A DNA stretch of 39,427 bases from Betaproteobacteria bacterium. GTDB lineage: Bacteria > Pseudomonadota > Gammaproteobacteria > Burkholderiales > Burkholderiaceae_C. How positions within the stretch are numbered: the stretch's first letter is position 1; each line of letters opens with the position of its first letter. The notes beneath the pieces are model-generated. The model was not told the DNA's origin and ran no database searches. It saw only the letters and a program-made list of their open reading frames with translations. The translations under genes were made by a program, and so were the position numbers. Positions 2,718 to 24,174 of the stretch are shown here, piece by piece. The stretch spans positions 1-39,427 of the forward strand of contig CANFOR010000003.1 of assembly GCA_947448675.1 (NCBI GenBank), read 5' to 3'.

Positions 2718-4112
2718 ATGACACCATGCAATCCGCGCCGCCAGCCGCGCGAATTTTTAGAACAGCTTTACCAAGCCGCCGTCACGCGGGCGCTGCCACT
2801 GCACAACACCTCAGCTTATCTGCCCCCGCCGCCCACGCGCGCGAGTGGTGGCCGCACCATCGTGCTGGGCGCGGGCAAGGCGGCGGGGGCGATGGCCCAG
2901 GCGGTCGAGGCGCTGTGGGCTGCGCATGCGGGCTGGGACGCGCCGCTCAGCGGCTTGGTGGTCACACGCTACGGCCACACGCCGCCGCGACCTGCGAGCC
3001 TGGTGGGCCTGGCGCAGCGCATTGAAGTGGTGGAGGCTGCCCACCCCGTGCCCGATGCAGCAGGCCTGGCGGCATCCGAGCGCATCATGGCCATGGCGCA
3101 GGGGCTCACCGAGCATGACCTGGTGCTGTGCCTCATCTCCGGCGGCGGCTCGTCTTTGCTGACCCTGCCGGCGGAGGGTTTGACGCTGGCCGACAAGCAG
3201 CGCATCAACCAAGAACTGCTGGCCAGTGGCGCCAGCATCGGCGAGATGAACTGCGTGCGCAAACACCTCTCGCGCATCAAGGGCGGGCGCTTGGCTGCGG
3301 CCTGTGCGCCTGCGCGCGTGGTGACGCTTGCCATTAGCGATGTGCCAGGTGACGACCCCAGCACCATTGCCAGTGGCCCGACTGTGCCCGACGCCACGAC
3401 TTGCCTCGATGCGCTACAAATTTTAGAGCGCTACACGCACAGCCTGCCTGCCTCGGTGGCCGATTTGCTGCGTAACAATGCCTTAGAAACGCCCAAACCT
3501 GGCGACCCGATTTTTGCTGCGCAAACGGTGCACGTGATCGCCACACCGCAGCAGTCTTTGGAAGCAGCAGCGGTACTGGCGCGGCAAGCGGGCCTGGCGG
3601 CATACATCTTGAGCGACGAAATGGAAGGCGAGTCGCGCGAGGTCGGTAAGGTGCATGCAGCCCTGGCGCGGGCCGTGGCACGCGGCCAAGGCGCATGGCA
3701 AAAACCCTGCGTGATTTTGAGCGGCGGCGAGACCACGGTGACGGTACGCAAGCCTGCTGCCAGCACGCCCGCAATGGGCCTCAGCGCTACGGGCCAAGCG
3801 GCTACCCCAGGCAAGCCTGGCCGGGGAGGCCGCGCAGGCGAGTTTTGCATGGGCCTGGCCCTGGCCCTGCAAGGCCAGGCCAGCGTCTGGGGCTTGGCTG
3901 CTGACACCGACGGCATTGACGGCGTGGAAGACAACGCCGGTACTTTCGTCGCGCCCGACACCCTACGCAAAGCAGAGCAGCTCGGCATGAAAATCAATGA
4001 CTATTTAAGCCGCAACGATGCCTACGGCTACTTCGAACCACTGGGCGATTTGCTCTTCACCGGGCCCACCCATACCAATGTGAACGATTTTCGTGCGCTA
4101 TTGATTTTGTAG
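2718..4112 (+). CDS. ttuD: Glycerate 2-kinase / hydroxypyruvate reductase (MOFRL family)
   Basis: Contains VLGAGKAAGAMAQAVE, CLISGGGSSLLTLPAEGL, SDVPGDDPSTIASGPT, LSGGETTVTV and a C-terminal MOFRL-like DTDGIDG region. The stop codon TAG lies inside repeat copy R2. Confidence 0.92.
   Translation: MTPCNPRRQPREFLEQLYQAAVTRALPLHNTSAYLPPPPTRASGGRTIVLGAGKAAGAMAQAVEALWAAHAGWDAPLSGLVVTRYGHTPPRPASLVGLAQRIEVVEAAHPVPDAAGLAASERIMAMAQGLTEHDLVLCLISGGGSSLLTLPAEGLTLADKQRINQELLASGASIGEMNCVRKHLSRIKGGRLAAACAPARVVTLAISDVPGDDPSTIASGPTVPDATTCLDALQILERYTHSLPASVADLLRNNALETPKPGDPIFAAQTVHVIATPQQSLEAAAVLARQAGLAAYILSDEMEGESREVGKVHAALARAVARGQGAWQKPCVILSGGETTVTVRKPAASTPAMGLSATGQAATPGKPGRGGRAGEFCMGLALALQGQASVWGLAADTDGIDGVEDNAGTFVAPDTLRKAEQLGMKINDYLSRNDAYGYFEPLGDLLFTGPTHTNVNDFRALLIL
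3413..3466 (+). repeat. GCT-N11-AGC repeat copy R1 (inside ttuD)
   Basis: Core gctacaaattttagagc (3413-3429); CGCA exactly 6 nt after core; tail ...ggtggccgattt. Encodes LQILERYTH. Confidence 0.75.
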
Positions 4113-4174: not shown

Positions 4175-4459
4175 ATGCATATTAGTTTTGCAGAATTTGA
4201 AGCCGCCACCCAAGCCCAAGGCTATCCCGAGGTGTTGGCGCGCGAATGGCTCGCCAACACTGTAGCGGGCGAGCACAGCCACCCCTTTGACGCCAGCGCC
4301 TTGCTGGTGCAAGGCGAAATGTGGCTCACCGTCGATGGCAAAACCCAGCATCTGTTGCCCGGCGACCGCTTTGCCTTGCTGCGCGACACCCTGCACGATG
4401 AACGTTATGGCCCCGAAGGCGCCACCTACTGGGTCGGGCGACGCGGAGCTAGCGCTTGA
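4175..4459 (+). CDS. Cupin-like small protein
   Basis: Short protein with AGEHSHPFDASALLVQGEMWLTVDGKTQHLLPGDRFALL, a cupin-style His/Gly pattern. Start set at MHISFAEF after GGAG. Confidence 0.7.
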   Translation: MHISFAEFEAATQAQGYPEVLAREWLANTVAGEHSHPFDASALLVQGEMWLTVDGKTQHLLPGDRFALLRDTLHDERYGPEGATYWVGRRGASA

Positions 4460-7452
4460 GCTGGCTGCGCTGGCTGTATGCGGCGCTCTGCCTCTGTGCG
4501 GTGGGCCCTGCCTTGGCGCAAGATGCGCAGCTCGACGCCAGCTTTCGCCGCGTTAGCCCACAAGAGCAGCAGCGGCTCGAAGCCGTGCTGGCCGCGCCGG
4601 TGCCACAAGGGGCCACGCCCGAGGCGCTGGACAAACACTTTGTGGAGAAAGAAGTCGCGGCCCAAATGTTGGGCGAGCGCGTCCAGCGTGAAGACACTTT
4701 GCGGGCCTGGGCCGCCGCCGTGCCCAACTGGGTGCCACGCCTGAACTTGGCCTTGACCTACCAGTACCGCCAAGACTACGCGCAAGCTAACCAGTGGATG
4801 CGCGATGCCTGCGCCAACACCGCCAATGCCTGGACCAAGAGTTTTTGCACAGCCCGCTTTGCCGAGATGCTGGCCCAGCAGTTTCAGCCCGAGCAGGCCG
4901 AGCAAAAAGCCGCCGAAGCACGCAGCCAGGTGGCCAGCGCCGAGCCCGGGGCCAAGCAAGTTTGGCAGCAAGTCAACATCGCCCGCGCCAAGTACCAACT
5001 CGACATGGCCCGCTGCACCCTGCTGCGAAATGCAGGCCAGCGCGAGAAGGCCTTGCAAGCCGCCCACGAGGCCGAGCAAAGCGCGCGCTATACCGTGCAA
5101 TTGGTTGCCAAGGAAGGCCGTGCGCAGCGCATCGGCCCGGGGGTGGATTTGTCTGACGCGCTAGCCCGCAGCACCGCCCTGGCGCGCGACCTGGGCCTGT
5201 ACTCCCAGGCCGAAGCGTCTTTGGCCAAGCACCTGCGCGCCGCCAAAGAGCTCGAGCTCCCGTTGGTGCAGCGCATGGCGATTTACGAGAGCGCAGCCAA
5301 CCTGCGCTTTGTCCAGCGCGAGTTTGCTGCTGCAGAAAAGCTGGCACGCCAGGCTGACGAAATCACCGCCAACATGGGCTATGAGCCCACCCACCCTTGG
5401 CGCGTAGCCAAAATGCGCTTGATCTTGCTGAGTATGGGTGGGCAAAAGCATTGGGCGCCAGCGGCGGCCGAGTTGGCCCGGCTCGACGCAGCGGCCAGCA
5501 CCAGCGCCCAGCAAGCCCGCGCCCAAATGGGCTACGAGCGCGGCCTGGTTTACCTGCACACTGGCCGTGGCCCTGAGGCTGCGCCTTTGTTTGCGCAAAG
5601 CGCCCAGAGATACAAGCGCACTTTTGGTGAGCAGCATTTGTTCACCGCCAACGCCCAAGGCTTGCAAGGTGCAGCCCTGTGGCAAAGCGCCGTGCCCGCT
5701 GACAAAGCCAAGGCCTTGGCTTTGCTCAAACTGTCGGTGCAAAACCAGCTCTTGCCCAGCAATGCCGACTACTCTGAAAACCACGGCGTGCGCAAAGAAA
5801 TTCGCGCCGCGATTTTTGCCGCCTACCTCGAAGCCCTGGCCACCACGCCGGGTGAAGACCCCCTGCAAGCCCTGGGCGTGGCCGACTGGGTGCGCGGCGG
5901 CGTGGTGCAAGGCGCGTTGGCCGACGCAGCGGTGCGCTCGGCCGCGCAAGACCCGGCCCTGGCCGAGTGGGTGCGGCAAGACCAAGACGCTAAAAACGAA
6001 ACCGCTGCATTGCGCAATTATTTGCAAGGTGACGCGGGCGACGCGGCCTCGCCATTGCCTGACGTTGCTACCAAAATGAGAGCGCGAATCGCAGAACTGG
6101 AGCGCATTAGAAGCCAATTGCATGCCAAAATCCAGCAGGGATTTCCAGATTACGACCGCCTGGTGCGGCCGCAAGCACCCAGCACGCAAAGCATTCGCCA
6201 GGGCATAGGTGCCAATGAGGCCCTGCTGATGCTTTTGCCCACGCCAGACGCCGTTTACGTCTGGGCCCTGGCTGCGGATGGCGCGCCCGCCTTTGCCCGC
6301 GTGCTCCTGCCGCAAAGCGAATTGGCAGCGCTGGTGCGCGAGCTGCGCCGCACCTTGGCCGAAGACAGCAGTACGCACCGCCCGCCCGACTTCAGCCTGC
6401 GCAACGCCTACGCCATTTACCAGCGCCTGCTGGCCCCTGTAGCCCAAGTATGGGCTGGTAAAAAGCACTTGGTGGTGGCGGCCGGGGGCGAGTTGGGGCA
6501 AATCCCGTTTGGCCTCTTGCTCACCGCGCCGGGGCCCGATGCCAGCGCCACGCGGGTGCCCGGCCAAGGTGTGCCCGCTGCGCAATGGCCCTGGTTGATT
6601 CGGCAAATCGCCATCAGCCACGTGCCCAGCGTGACGGCTTGGCTGGCCACCAAACTGTTTGCCAAAGCGCCTTCAGCGCCCGAGGCTTTGATGGCCTGGG
6701 CCGACCCAATTTTTAAGCTCCATTCAGAAGAAAAAAGGCCTGAGACGCCCGCCAAACGTGCGTTAGCAGCTACAGAAATGGTAGCGCCTATCGCATTGGA
6801 GTTGAGCGAAACGCTGCGCGCCAGGCCCGACTATGGCGACATATTGCCGCGCTTGTTTGACACCGAAGACGAGGTGCTGGAGATCGCCCACTCGCTGCAG
6901 GCCAACCCGCAGACCGACGTGGTCTTGGGCGCGCGGGCTACGCGCGACAGCGTGCTGCTGGCCAGCAGCAGCGGCGCTTTGCGGCGCAAACGGGTGCTGG
7001 CGTTTTCGACCCACGGGCTCAAAGCCAATGACCTACCGGGCCTGGACCAACCGTCTTTGGCCATGGCCGCTACCAGCGCCACGGCGGGCCGTATCCAAAG
7101 CTCTTTGCTGCTGCTGAGCGATGTGCTGGGCCTCAAGCTCAATGCCGACTGGGTGGTGCTTTCGGCCTGCAACACGGCCTCGGCCGACGGTCAAGCCGAC
7201 GAGGCCTTGAGCGGTTTGGCGCGCGGCTTTTTCTATGCTGGCTCGCGCAGCGTGGTGGTGACGCATTGGTCGGTCTACAGTGGCAGCGCCAAAGACTTGA
7301 TGGTGGCGACCTTTGCCCACTACGCGCAAAACCCACAAGCGCCCAAGGCCGAGAGCCTGCGCCAAGCCATGCTCAAAGTCATGGCCAAGCCCTCCTATGG
7401 CCATCCTATCCATTGGGCGCCCTATGCGCTGGTGGGGGACGGTGGGCGCTAA
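4456..7452 (+). CDS. Exported TPR-repeat protein with C-terminal CHAT (caspase-like) domain
   Basis: Signal peptide MSWLRWLYAALCLCAVGPALAQ, long helical/TPR-like region, and a C-terminal CHAT signature: RVLAFSTHGLK (His) and ADWVVLSACNTASADG...LSGLARGFFYAGSRSVVVTHW (Cys). TTG start overlaps the upstream TGA. Confidence 0.85.
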   Translation: MSWLRWLYAALCLCAVGPALAQDAQLDASFRRVSPQEQQRLEAVLAAPVPQGATPEALDKHFVEKEVAAQMLGERVQREDTLRAWAAAVPNWVPRLNLALTYQYRQDYAQANQWMRDACANTANAWTKSFCTARFAEMLAQQFQPEQAEQKAAEARSQVASAEPGAKQVWQQVNIARAKYQLDMARCTLLRNAGQREKALQAAHEAEQSARYTVQLVAKEGRAQRIGPGVDLSDALARSTALARDLGLYSQAEASLAKHLRAAKELELPLVQRMAIYESAANLRFVQREFAAAEKLARQADEITANMGYEPTHPWRVAKMRLILLSMGGQKHWAPAAAELARLDAAASTSAQQARAQMGYERGLVYLHTGRGPEAAPLFAQSAQRYKRTFGEQHLFTANAQGLQGAALWQSAVPADKAKALALLKLSVQNQLLPSNADYSENHGVRKEIRAAIFAAYLEALATTPGEDPLQALGVADWVRGGVVQGALADAAVRSAAQDPALAEWVRQDQDAKNETAALRNYLQGDAGDAASPLPDVATKMRARIAELERIRSQLHAKIQQGFPDYDRLVRPQAPSTQSIRQGIGANEALLMLLPTPDAVYVWALAADGAPAFARVLLPQSELAALVRELRRTLAEDSSTHRPPDFSLRNAYAIYQRLLAPVAQVWAGKKHLVVAAGGELGQIPFGLLLTAPGPDASATRVPGQGVPAAQWPWLIRQIAISHVPSVTAWLATKLFAKAPSAPEALMAWADPIFKLHSEEKRPETPAKRALAATEMVAPIALELSETLRARPDYGDILPRLFDTEDEVLEIAHSLQANPQTDVVLGARATRDSVLLASSSGALRRKRVLAFSTHGLKANDLPGLDQPSLAMAATSATAGRIQSSLLLLSDVLGLKLNADWVVLSACNTASADGQADEALSGLARGFFYAGSRSVVVTHWSVYSGSAKDLMVATFAHYAQNPQAPKAESLRQAMLKVMAKPSYGHPIHWAPYALVGDGGR
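6067..6122 (+). repeat. GCT-N11-AGC repeat copy R3 (inside CHAT gene)
   Basis: gctaccaaaatgagagc gcgaat CGCAgaactggagcgcattagaagccaatt. Confidence 0.7.
6769..6805 (+). repeat. GCT-N11-AGC repeat copy R4 (inside CHAT gene)
   Basis: gctacagaaatggtagc gcctat CGCAttggag. Confidence 0.65.
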
Positions 7453-12640: not shown

Positions 12641-14794
12641 TCAAGCCGACTGCAAAGCGCGAATAAAACCTTGGCGCAGGCCATGCAACAGCCGCTCATG
12701 CCAACGCGGGTTTTGAATCACCTCGGCCCGGTAAAACGAGGGGCAGAGCGTGGCGGCATGCGCGTTCTCGCCGCATAGACCGCAGCCCACGCAGCCGTCG
12801 ATCACGGTGGCCACTGGGTCTACCTTCAATGGGTCGGGGTTGTCTTTCAGCGTGAGGGTGGGGCAACCCGAGAGGCGGATGCAGGCGTGGTCACCATTGC
12901 AGACATCTTCGTCTACGCCATATTTGACGCGCACAACGCGCTCTTTTTTTTGTAGCAGGCTGGCGATCCAGGGTTTGATGCGGCGCTGGCGCTCGAGCTG
13001 GCATTCGCCCTCGGCGATGATGACTTTCAGGCCATTGAAGTCGCTGGTGAAGGCCTGCTTGATGGTCTCGCGCACCTTGGCTACTTCGTAGGTGGTGACG
13101 GTGCGCATCCATTGCACGCCCATGCCTTGCAGGGTGCGCTCGATCGACTGGTTGGCGTGCGCGCTGCTGGCGCCTTTGTCGGTGGCGGCGTCTTTGGAGC
13201 GCTGGCTGGGCGTAGACCAAATGTCTTGCGTGCCGGTGGCTGCGGTGTAGCCGTTTTTGAAGATCATCAGCACCGCGTCGTCGTTGTTGAAGAGCGCGCT
13301 TTGCACGCCGGTGAGCAGGCCGTTGTGCCAAAAACCGCCGTCACCCATGATGGACAGGGTGCGCCGTTGCATCATCGGCGAGACGCCTGCGCGGCTGGCC
13401 AGGCTCATGCCATAGCCCAAGATCGAGTGGCCAAAAGAGAAGGGCGCAAAGGTGCCAAAAGCGTGGCAGCCAATGTCGGCCGCAATGTGTACGGGGCCCA
13501 GGTCTTGCTGCGCCAGTTTGAGCGCTGAGAACACCGGGCGCTCGGGGCAGCCTATGCAAAAACCGGGCGGGCGAATCGGTAGCGGTTTGCCCAGGGTGGC
13601 GGCGACTGCAGTGCGGCGCTCGGCATTGCCCGCCAGCCAAGCCAGGCCATCGCCCACCGCCGCGCTGGGCAGGTGCTGGGCCAAGAACGCGCCCAAGCCC
13701 CGCGCCATGGCCTCGGCGGTGTATTCGCCAGTGGCACTCAGCATGTCTTTGCCGTGCAGTTTGGTTTGCACGTCTTGCCTGCGCAAAATGGTGGACACCT
13801 CTTGCTCGATGTATTCGGGCGAGCCCTCTTCCACCACCAGCACGGCGTGTTTGCCCAGTGCAAATTGCGCAATTTGGTCGGGCACCAACGGGCAGGTGAC
13901 GTTGAGTACCAAGAGCGCAATGGCACTCTCACCAAAGGCGTCGGCCAAGCCAAACTGCTGCAGCGCGCGAATGAGCGTGTTGTACACCCCGCCCTGCACA
14001 ATGATGCCCAGTTGCGTGTGCTCGCCGGGCATCAACTCGTTTAAATTGTTTTCAACAATGTAGCGTCGCGCAGCGGGGATGCGCTCTTCAACTTTGCGCT
14101 TCTCATGGCCAAAGGTCACCGGTGGATGCGCCAGCTTGTCGTAGTTAAAACTGGCGGGCTCGGCCATCAGCGCCTTGGTGGAAATGGCGGGCGCTACGTT
14201 GTCTTTGCAAACAAAGCTGCCACGCACATGGCAAGCGCGGATGCGCAGTTCCAAAATCGCGGGCATGTTGCAGGCCTCTGAGAGGCGAAAGGCATGCTCC
14301 ACCGTATTCACCATATGGCCCAGCTCGGGCCGGGGGTCGAGCAGGCACATGGTGGACTTGAGCGCAAAGGCGTGCGTGCGCTCTTGGATCACACTGGCAC
14401 CCTCGCCAAAGTCTTCGCCCACAACAATCAGCGCGCCGCCGAGTACGCCGGGGGACGAGAGGTTGGAGAGCGCATCGGCCGCCACATTGGTGCCGACGAT
14501 GCTCTTCCAGGTCACCGCGCCACGCAGCGGGTAGTGGATGCTGGCGCCCAACATGGCCGCAGCCGAGGCTTCGTTGGCGCATGCCTCTACGTGCACACCC
14601 AGCTCGTCCATATAGGCCTTGGCCTGCACCATCACGTCGAGCAGGTGCGAGACCGGCGCGCCCTGGTAGCCGCCCACATAGGCCACGCCCGACTGCAGCA
14701 AGGCTTTGGTAATCGCCAAGATGCCCTCACCGTGAAAGGCCTGCCCCGCGCCCAAGCGCAGGGACTCGATCTCTTGGCTGAATGAAACTTCCAC
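12641..14794 (-). CDS. iorA: Indolepyruvate ferredoxin oxidoreductase alpha subunit-like (TPP-binding, C-terminal Fe-S region)
   Basis: Contains FHGEGILAITKALLQSGVAYVGGYQGAPVSHLLDVM, CIGCPERPVFSALK, MGDGGFWHNGL and CVGCGLCGENAHAATLCPSF. GTG start preferred (GGAGACACGCCGTG); the ORF-track start at 14920 is upstream. Confidence 0.9.
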   Translation of the reverse strand: MEVSFSQEIESLRLGAGQAFHGEGILAITKALLQSGVAYVGGYQGAPVSHLLDVMVQAKAYMDELGVHVEACANEASAAAMLGASIHYPLRGAVTWKSIVGTNVAADALSNLSSPGVLGGALIVVGEDFGEGASVIQERTHAFALKSTMCLLDPRPELGHMVNTVEHAFRLSEACNMPAILELRIRACHVRGSFVCKDNVAPAISTKALMAEPASFNYDKLAHPPVTFGHEKRKVEERIPAARRYIVENNLNELMPGEHTQLGIIVQGGVYNTLIRALQQFGLADAFGESAIALLVLNVTCPLVPDQIAQFALGKHAVLVVEEGSPEYIEQEVSTILRRQDVQTKLHGKDMLSATGEYTAEAMARGLGAFLAQHLPSAAVGDGLAWLAGNAERRTAVAATLGKPLPIRPPGFCIGCPERPVFSALKLAQQDLGPVHIAADIGCHAFGTFAPFSFGHSILGYGMSLASRAGVSPMMQRRTLSIMGDGGFWHNGLLTGVQSALFNNDDAVLMIFKNGYTAATGTQDIWSTPSQRSKDAATDKGASSAHANQSIERTLQGMGVQWMRTVTTYEVAKVRETIKQAFTSDFNGLKVIIAEGECQLERQRRIKPWIASLLQKKERVVRVKYGVDEDVCNGDHACIRLSGCPTLTLKDNPDPLKVDPVATVIDGCVGCGLCGENAHAATLCPSFYRAEVIQNPRWHERLLHGLRQGFIRALQSA
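12928..12956 (-). repeat. GCT-N11-AGC repeat copy R6 (inside iorA), degenerate tail
   Basis: Minus strand core gctacaaaaaaaagagc (12940-12956). Encodes LQKKER. Confidence 0.55.
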
Positions 14795-19351: not shown

Positions 19352-19963
19352 ATGCACAAAGATTTTTCTCCCACACGCTTAGACGTGGCGGCCTTTGCCG
19401 AGCAGCAATCGAGCTTGACAGGCGCTGACGACGGCCTCGCAGCGCTACAAAAATATGAGCGCCTTGCGCAGGACTGGCAAGGCTTGGAGCCCGATGCCAT
19501 CGCCGCCATCAGCGTGCACTGGCAGGCCCAGGGCAGTATGCAGCACGGGCCCGGCACCACGCGCGAGGTTTGGCTCACGCTGCAAGCCAAGGCGCATTTG
19601 CAGCAAACCTGCCAGCGCTGCTTGCAAGCCGTGGGCGTGCCAGTCGAGATCGAGCGCAGCTACCGCTTTGTGGCCGACGAGGCCACCGCTGAGCGCGACG
19701 ACGCCGAGGTTGAAGAAGACCTGTTGGTGACCAGCCGCCAGTTCAACTTGCAAGACTTGGTAGAAGACGAGTTGCTGATGGAGCTGCCCCTGGTCGCCTT
19801 GCACGAGGTCTGCCCGGTGCAATTGCCGACCCAGGCGGTGAGCCCAGGTTTTGAAGAGCCTGCTGTACCCAGCACTGCGGGTGCCGATGCGCCCAGCCTG
19901 GGCAGCTCGGGCAAGCCCAACCCCTTTGCGGTGCTGGCCTCGCTGAAGCTTCCGCCGGGCTGA
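19352..19963 (+). CDS. yceD: YceD/DUF177 family protein
   Basis: LQQTCQRCLQAVGVPVEIERSYRFV and EEDLLVTSRQFNLQDLVEDELLMELPLVALHEVCP, immediately upstream of rpmF. Confidence 0.88.
   Translation: MHKDFSPTRLDVAAFAEQQSSLTGADDGLAALQKYERLAQDWQGLEPDAIAAISVHWQAQGSMQHGPGTTREVWLTLQAKAHLQQTCQRCLQAVGVPVEIERSYRFVADEATAERDDAEVEEDLLVTSRQFNLQDLVEDELLMELPLVALHEVCPVQLPTQAVSPGFEEPAVPSTAGADAPSLGSSGKPNPFAVLASLKLPPG
19444..19498 (+). repeat. GCT-N11-AGC repeat copy R11 (inside yceD)
   Basis: gctacaaaaatatgagc gccttg CGCAGgactggcaaggcttggagcccgatgcc. Encodes LQKYERLAQDWQG. Confidence 0.8.
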
Positions 19964-23395: not shown

Positions 23396-24174
23396 GCGAC
23401 ACAGCAAGCCCTGCAGCACCATCGGCTGCACACGCCACAGCACAGGTGGCCTTGGTCACCGGCGCTACACGCGGCATTGGTGCGGCCATTGCATTGCAAC
23501 TGGCGCAGCAAGGCTACACCGTTATCGGTACCGCCACCAGCGCTGAAGGTGCTACAAAAATAGGAGCTGCTTACGCAGCAACGGCGGGCGTTGGCAGCCT
23601 GCGTGGCATGGTACTCGACGTTACCGACGGCCCCGCTGCCGAGGCTGCCGTAGACGCCATCGTGAAGGAACACGGCGCGCTGCAAGTGCTGGTGAACAAC
23701 GCTGGTATTACCCGCGACATGCTGGCCATGCGCCTCAAAGACGCCGACTGGGACGCGGTGATCGACACCAACCTCAAAGCCGTGTTTCGCATGAGCCGCG
23801 CGGTGATGCGCACGATGATGAAGCAGCGCTATGGCCGCATCATCAGCATCACCAGTGTGGTGGGAGCCTCGGGCAATGCGGGTCAGGCCAATTACGCCGC
23901 CGCCAAGGCTGGCGTAGCGGGCATGACGCGGGCCCTGGCACGCGAGCTGGGCAGCCGCAACATCACCGTCAACTGCGTCGCTCCGGGCTTTATCGCCACC
24001 GACATGACGGCTGGTTTGCCCGAGGCGCAGCAGCAAGCCTTGCTCGCGCAAATTCCGCTGGGCCATTTGGGCCAGCCCTCAGACGTCGCGCATGCGGTGG
24101 CGTATTTGGCCTCGGCCAACGCGGCTTATGTGACGGGGCAAGAGCTGCATGTCAATGGCGGCATGTACATGTAG
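23392..24174 (+). CDS. fabG: 3-oxoacyl-ACP reductase
   Basis: VTGATRGIGAAIALQL, VNNAGITRDMLAMRLKDADWD, NYAAAKAGVAGMTRALAREL, HVNGGMYM. Confidence 0.97.
   Translation: MSDTASPAAPSAAHATAQVALVTGATRGIGAAIALQLAQQGYTVIGTATSAEGATKIGAAYAATAGVGSLRGMVLDVTDGPAAEAAVDAIVKEHGALQVLVNNAGITRDMLAMRLKDADWDAVIDTNLKAVFRMSRAVMRTMMKQRYGRIISITSVVGASGNAGQANYAAAKAGVAGMTRALARELGSRNITVNCVAPGFIATDMTAGLPEAQQQALLAQIPLGHLGQPSDVAHAVAYLASANAAYVTGQELHVNGGMYM
23551..23600 (+). repeat. GCT-N11-AGC repeat copy R14 (inside fabG)
   Basis: gctacaaaaataggagc tgctta CGCAGcaacggcgggcgttggcagcc. Encodes ATKIGAAYAA. Confidence 0.75.

Follow-up and report, generated by a model that had tools for sequence, protein, structure and literature searches.

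The window analysed here, a stretch of 39,427 nucleotides of betaproteobacterial DNA, carries in order a glycerate kinase-type gene, a gene for a cupin protein of 94 aa and a gene for an apparently exported protein in which a TPR-like helical region is followed by a C-terminal CHAT domain. This last gene (the CHAT gene) faces thioesterase and TRAP transporter genes, and its Pfam-annotated neighbours in the window are metabolic and transport genes. The features referred to below are as follows.

2718..4112, + strand: glycerate 2-kinase/MOFRL-type protein, the upstream neighbour, which lies outside the proposed system (Pfam, family-genome search)
4175..4459, + strand: small cupin protein of 94 aa, not a conserved partner (Pfam, sequence, family-genome search)
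4445..4448, + strand: GGAG within the cupin gene, a possible ribosome-binding site for the CHAT gene (sequence)
4456..7452, + strand: gene for the apparently exported TPR-CHAT protein of 998 aa, starting at TTG (ORF, Pfam, AlphaFold, Foldseek)
4456..4518, + strand: predicted Sec signal peptide, residues 1-21, with cleavage between PALA and QDA (sequence by eye, homologue N-termini)
4558..6141, + strand: TPR-like helical solenoid, residues ~35-562 (AlphaFold secondary structure, homologue-profile matches to solved TPR proteins)
6406..7440, + strand: CHAT domain, residues 651-995 (Pfam PF12770, E 4.2e-39)
7012..7014, + strand: codon of the predicted catalytic His853 (STHG), invariant in 31/31 homologues
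7168..7170, + strand: codon of the predicted catalytic Cys905 (SACNT), invariant in 31/31 homologues

The original prediction of a 998-aa, apparently exported TPR-CHAT open reading frame at 4456-7452 was borne out by the reading frame itself, Pfam, AlphaFold and the homologue alignment. Because an in-frame TAG lies at 4450-4452, just 5' of the TTG at 4456, this TTG is the first usable start codon. The GGAG at 4445-4448 is located 7 nt 5' of it, and the TTG (4456-4458) overlaps the TGA stop codon of the cupin gene (4457-4459), confirming the TTGA overlap described earlier; this arrangement may couple the translation of cupin and CHAT in the source strain. For the cupin gene, the probable start is the ATG at 4175, which follows GAGGAG, rather than 4130.

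Two copies of a dispersed repeat had also been placed within the CHAT coding sequence. The element, GCTACNAAAANNDGAGC, is found at 15 sites in the window at up to two mismatches, against 0.84 expected (for example at 19444-19470, 23551-23577 and, on the - strand, 12940-12956), and a search of the assembly with a longer form, fitted to the window copies, gave 8 occurrences, 4 within the window and 4 elsewhere, against 0 for a reversed control. Within the CHAT gene one copy is an exact match (6067-6083), while the other, at 6769, is only weak. The copy at 6067 encodes VATKMRARI, and since this protein segment is conserved, aligning without gaps in close homologues, the copy gives no evidence of an insertion, a reading that we set aside.

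The TTGA overlap and its plausible GGAG site are what speaks for the idea that CHAT and the adjacent cupin act as a co-translated pair, a functional partnership that the original prediction had proposed to check by neighbourhood conservation. Across the family genomes the association is absent. Cupin homologues are common, being present in 59 of 201 family genomes. Where a genome carries both genes (G064, G184, G039 and G162), the cupin gene lies far from CHAT or on a different contig, never adjoining it in the relatives examined. The glycerate kinase gene is nearly universal (184/201), and neither it nor the cupin gene is present in any mapped neighbourhood of a CHAT homologue, the comparison being one of family genomes from outside the source genus. 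Moreover, the cupin lacks a signal-peptide-like start, and the cupin and CHAT products would therefore be expected in different compartments. Absent conservation thus largely refutes the pair model, and we consider joint action of the two proteins very improbable.

We then turn to the CHAT protein itself. The CHAT assignment is strong, with PF12770 scoring 135.1 bits against a cut-off of 24 and covering profile positions 4-289 of 289. The Pfam signal for TPR is weak by comparison (TPR_12 at E 1.5e-6, narrowly missing its cut-off), and the TPR region becomes clear only through the structural model and a profile built from 18 homologues, which matches designed and natural TPR proteins among the matches listed; with this qualification, the HMM check for CHAT and TPR came out as predicted. 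Sequence searches for relatives of solved structure with the single sequence, or with a CHAT-only profile, returned none. The AlphaFold model (mean pLDDT 82.8, pTM 0.78) consists of paired helices over residues ~35-562 and then an alpha/beta CHAT domain, and its best Foldseek matches against the PDB are human separase (E 1.7e-12) and Csx29 (8eey_B, E 1.1e-11, target-normalised TM 0.51). AlphaFold, Foldseek and the homologue profile support the order of TPR solenoid followed by CHAT, as in Csx29, and on the predicted model the protein would adopt a separase/Csx29-like fold.

An alignment of 31 homologues identifies the C-terminal region as the most conserved portion of the protein, with identity to the homologues of ~0.2 over much of the TPR part and of 0.5-0.67 over the catalytic end. 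The His/Cys pair recognised earlier in FSTHG (residues 850-854) and LSACNT (residues 902-907) is intact, with H853 and C905 kept in 31/31 homologues, and D750, W938 and P984 are likewise invariant in the aligned sequences (n=31). By these residues the CHAT protein is a putative cysteine protease. If the CHAT domain were instead catalytically dead, the protein might serve as an envelope scaffold, a role that would suit a TPR solenoid making up more than half of its length; invariance of the His, the Cys and their flanking residues in all 31 homologues argues against this, and we regard it as unlikely.

Judged by eye, the N-terminus (MSWLRWLYAALCLCAVGPALA, followed by QDA) opens with a short basic stretch, continues into a hydrophobic core and closes with an A-x-A site, as a Sec signal peptide would. 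Nearly all homologues likewise begin with a signal-peptide-like stretch, the exception being the truncated L050, although the homologue starts were chosen by a simple hydropathy criterion, biased towards hydrophobic stretches. Lipobox-like sites are present at the expected end of a lipoprotein signal in L039 and L041, and a lipobox match further upstream in L042 may be due to chance. Sequence features and family-wide N-termini support the apparent Sec signal peptide of the original prediction, and the CHAT protein may be periplasmic. The contrast drawn there with CHAT proteases as cytoplasmic enzymes was too strong, as a membrane segment is present in HetF (PMC8406250) and an N-terminal helix, perhaps a signal peptide, in many metacaspases (PMC3501461).

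CHAT homologues at E<=1e-20 were found in 25 of 401 family genomes, and outside the family a match at E<=1e-40 was seen in just 3 of 369 genomes from the class, the source genome not counted. The nearest relatives belong to the Comamonadaceae, the named ones being Rhodoferax bucti and Limnohabitans; plasmid matches are partial relatives of <60% identity. Two CHAT fragments (L052:8001-8324 and G325:C415:4220-4546), 76-77% identical to residues ~889-997 and lying in 151-aa open frames, are apparently remnants of a close CHAT homologue. A second CHAT-like match in the source genome, on contig C258 (L002/L056), was set aside as not CHAT: its domain is Peptidase_C14, followed by many MORN-like repeats, and its N-terminus looks exported.

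To map the neighbourhoods of these homologues, reference proteins were placed on the homologue loci, with domains confirmed by Pfam in several. This revealed a conserved cluster that encodes a small lipoprotein, an OmpA-family protein, a CHASE2 membrane protein and several Peptidase_C14 proteins, one of which carries SH3/DUF4384. The CHAT gene lies within or beside it in six relatives, G155 (L034), G237 (L108), G306 (L094, where a CHASE2 start lies just 3' of CHAT at the contig end), R. bucti (L048), G260 (L113) and G064 (L038). In five others (L043, L044, L045, L047 and L118) CHAT is followed by a gene for a CHASE2-PAS-GGDEF-EAL protein, and this group forms a separate branch of the tree. At L041, the neighbours of CHAT are two C14 genes together with a gene for an ECF-type sigma factor (L041:6401-6985), an arrangement reminiscent of the CHAT genes reported near ECF54 sigma factors (PMC8999054).

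In the source genome the cluster is found on contig C2, in the order OmpA-CHASE2-C14(DUF4384)-C14 with a divergent C14 gene and without CHAT, so that the source CHAT gene lies outside the CHASE2/OmpA/C14 cluster; a search of the source genome for the cluster lipoprotein did not find it. The three Peptidase_C14 proteins of C2 have exported-looking N-termini and intact GHG and DAC caspase motifs. For the C2-type CHASE2 protein the prediction is a single helix ahead of the sensor domain, three helices behind it and a small cytoplasmic domain; its model (pLDDT 85) contains four membrane-type helices, and its cytoplasmic end gave no match in the PDB below E 0.2. Two further CHASE2 proteins, on source contig C128 (L061), flank FHA-like and PP2C-like genes, the middle genes being assigned by eye, and this appears to be a typical kinase/phosphatase signalling locus.

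Among the 401 family genomes, 25 have CHAT, 22 have CHASE2 and 10 have both, more than expected (Fisher p 5e-8), with a CHASE2 orthologue threshold of ~E 1e-30 that was set after the table had been seen. Counted by genus (n=141), the figures are 17, 14 and 7 (p 2e-4), this count being the only way in which phylogeny was handled, and five of the CHASE2 genomes come from a single genus, g30. CHAT was not detected in 12 of the 22 CHASE2 genomes, and 15 of the 25 CHAT genomes are without that CHASE2. Stronger evidence for a link than the co-occurrence test is the adjacency of CHAT and CHASE2, found in eleven genomes that fall on separate branches of the tree.

About half of the CHAT homologues examined are stand-alone. 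They include the nearest homologue, L033, which adjoins an MlaE gene, and L035, which lies beside an MlaD gene; in each of the two-copy genomes G064, G237 and G306 one CHAT copy is located outside the cluster. The tree groups the source CHAT with the cluster-linked R. bucti copy (L048) and the stand-alone L033 (support 91/89), a placement that would fit either departure of this copy from the cluster or loss of CHAT by the cluster. It is possible, though less likely than the reading favoured below, that the source protein is a stand-alone exported TPR-CHAT protease with a role in envelope protein processing or quality control and without a tie to CHASE2 and C14, the linkage then reflecting the clustering of similarly regulated exported proteins. 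The stand-alone copies, with L033 among them, and the extra copies of the two-copy genomes fit such a role; what it explains less well is the recurrence of the adjacency (six genomes and five more, on separate branches) together with the non-random co-occurrence of CHAT and CHASE2. Since the GGDEF-EAL group branches apart, the CHAT-CHASE2 link may also express a general affinity and not a single system.

The reading that we favour, and hold with even confidence, is that the CHAT protein is a cysteine protease of the envelope, exported by Sec and separase/Csx29-like in fold, that acts with a CHASE2/OmpA/C14 system encoded elsewhere in the genome. In such a system the TPR solenoid would be the binding site for a partner or substrate, and the TPR body would restrain the C-terminal CHAT domain (His853/Cys905) until it receives a periplasmic or envelope-located trigger. 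The functional partners of CHAT would most likely be the C2-encoded OmpA-family protein, CHASE2 membrane protein and three Peptidase_C14 caspases, and not the cupin. CHAT might then cleave an envelope target, perhaps a C14 caspase or the periplasmic domain of CHASE2, both of which are the first substrate candidates because of the genetic association, and this cleavage would feed CHASE2 signalling. What the analysis shows are the domain, its predicted fold, the conserved dyad, export-signal-like N-termini in the family as a whole, and the linkage and co-occurrence of the genes in relatives; protease activity, a periplasmic location, substrate, activation and joint action of the separate source copy with the C2 cluster are all proposed. 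More speculatively, exported CHAT and exported caspases could form an envelope caspase cascade that works through the CHASE2 receptor, in one branch with a GGDEF-EAL c-di-GMP output, as a form of periplasmic proteolytic signalling; we put this forward as a possibility that is doubtful at present.

The fold class shared with Csx29 also raises the prospect of an anti-phage or cell-suicide protease, either Csx29-like or like the gasdermin-associated proteases. The export signal of the CHAT protein and the lack of any defence gene among its annotated neighbours speak against such a function, as does the PADLOC result, a weak and partial match to BovA (E 0.0068) over 46 residues only. A phage search gave no match and, as neither PADLOC nor PHROGs gave more than a weak one, we dropped the defence reading as improbable.

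Csx29, the best-studied TPR-CHAT protease, works inside the cell, and an exported family tied to CHASE2 and caspases would put caspase-type proteolysis in the Gram-negative envelope, with one branch connecting it to c-di-GMP enzymes. Among the papers searched, none joined CHASE2 with a CHAT domain, or TPR-CHAT with the periplasm; the parts are already known (CHAT, TPR-CHAT, CHASE2, orthocaspases), and their combination is not known to have been described as a unit. An earlier link between CHASE2 sensing and caspase-type proteases is the metacaspase-CHASE2 fusion of Trichodesmium, reported in a 2012 study that also raised a possible extracellular role for metacaspases (PMC3501461). The metacaspase domain of that fusion was inferred to be cytoplasmic, whereas here the proteases are separate and look exported, CHASE2 is a membrane protein, and CHAT is present besides. 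DdvA, a transmembrane anti-sigma factor (PDB 8rot), has a body similar to the predicted one (Foldseek E 1.9e-11) and serves as a lead only.

HetF of Anabaena, the founding member of the CHAT family, resembles the present protein in having TPRs and a membrane segment (PMC8406250), but its CHAT domain is N-terminal, its single TM segment is internal and it works with the divisome (FtsI). The reversed domain order (here signal peptide, TPR and CHAT last) rules out an orthologue of HetF; the relatives of the present protein are Comamonadaceae, not cyanobacteria. Separase, the best Foldseek match, likewise joins a helical-repeat body to a caspase-like protease end, but at ~11% identity and a TM of ~0.25-0.33, and it is a eukaryotic cohesin protease under the control of securin. 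Csx29 of the type III-E Craspase has TPR and a C-terminal CHAT domain with a His/Cys dyad, and matches in fold (E 1.1e-11); it differs in binding Cas7-11/gRAMP and in being activated by target RNA, while the CHAT protein described here is longer, carries an export signal and has no CRISPR genes among its annotated neighbours. Craspase loci carry Cas7-11 and a CRISPR array, and the substrate is Csx30. The Craspase TPR-CHAT dyad is H585/C627, with about 3-7 angstrom between His and Cys, and its site is autoinhibited until the binding of RNA rearranges it (PMC9729208). By analogy with this TPR-CHAT protein, control by the TPR body of access to the CHAT site would be the best-supported mode of regulation for the present protein.
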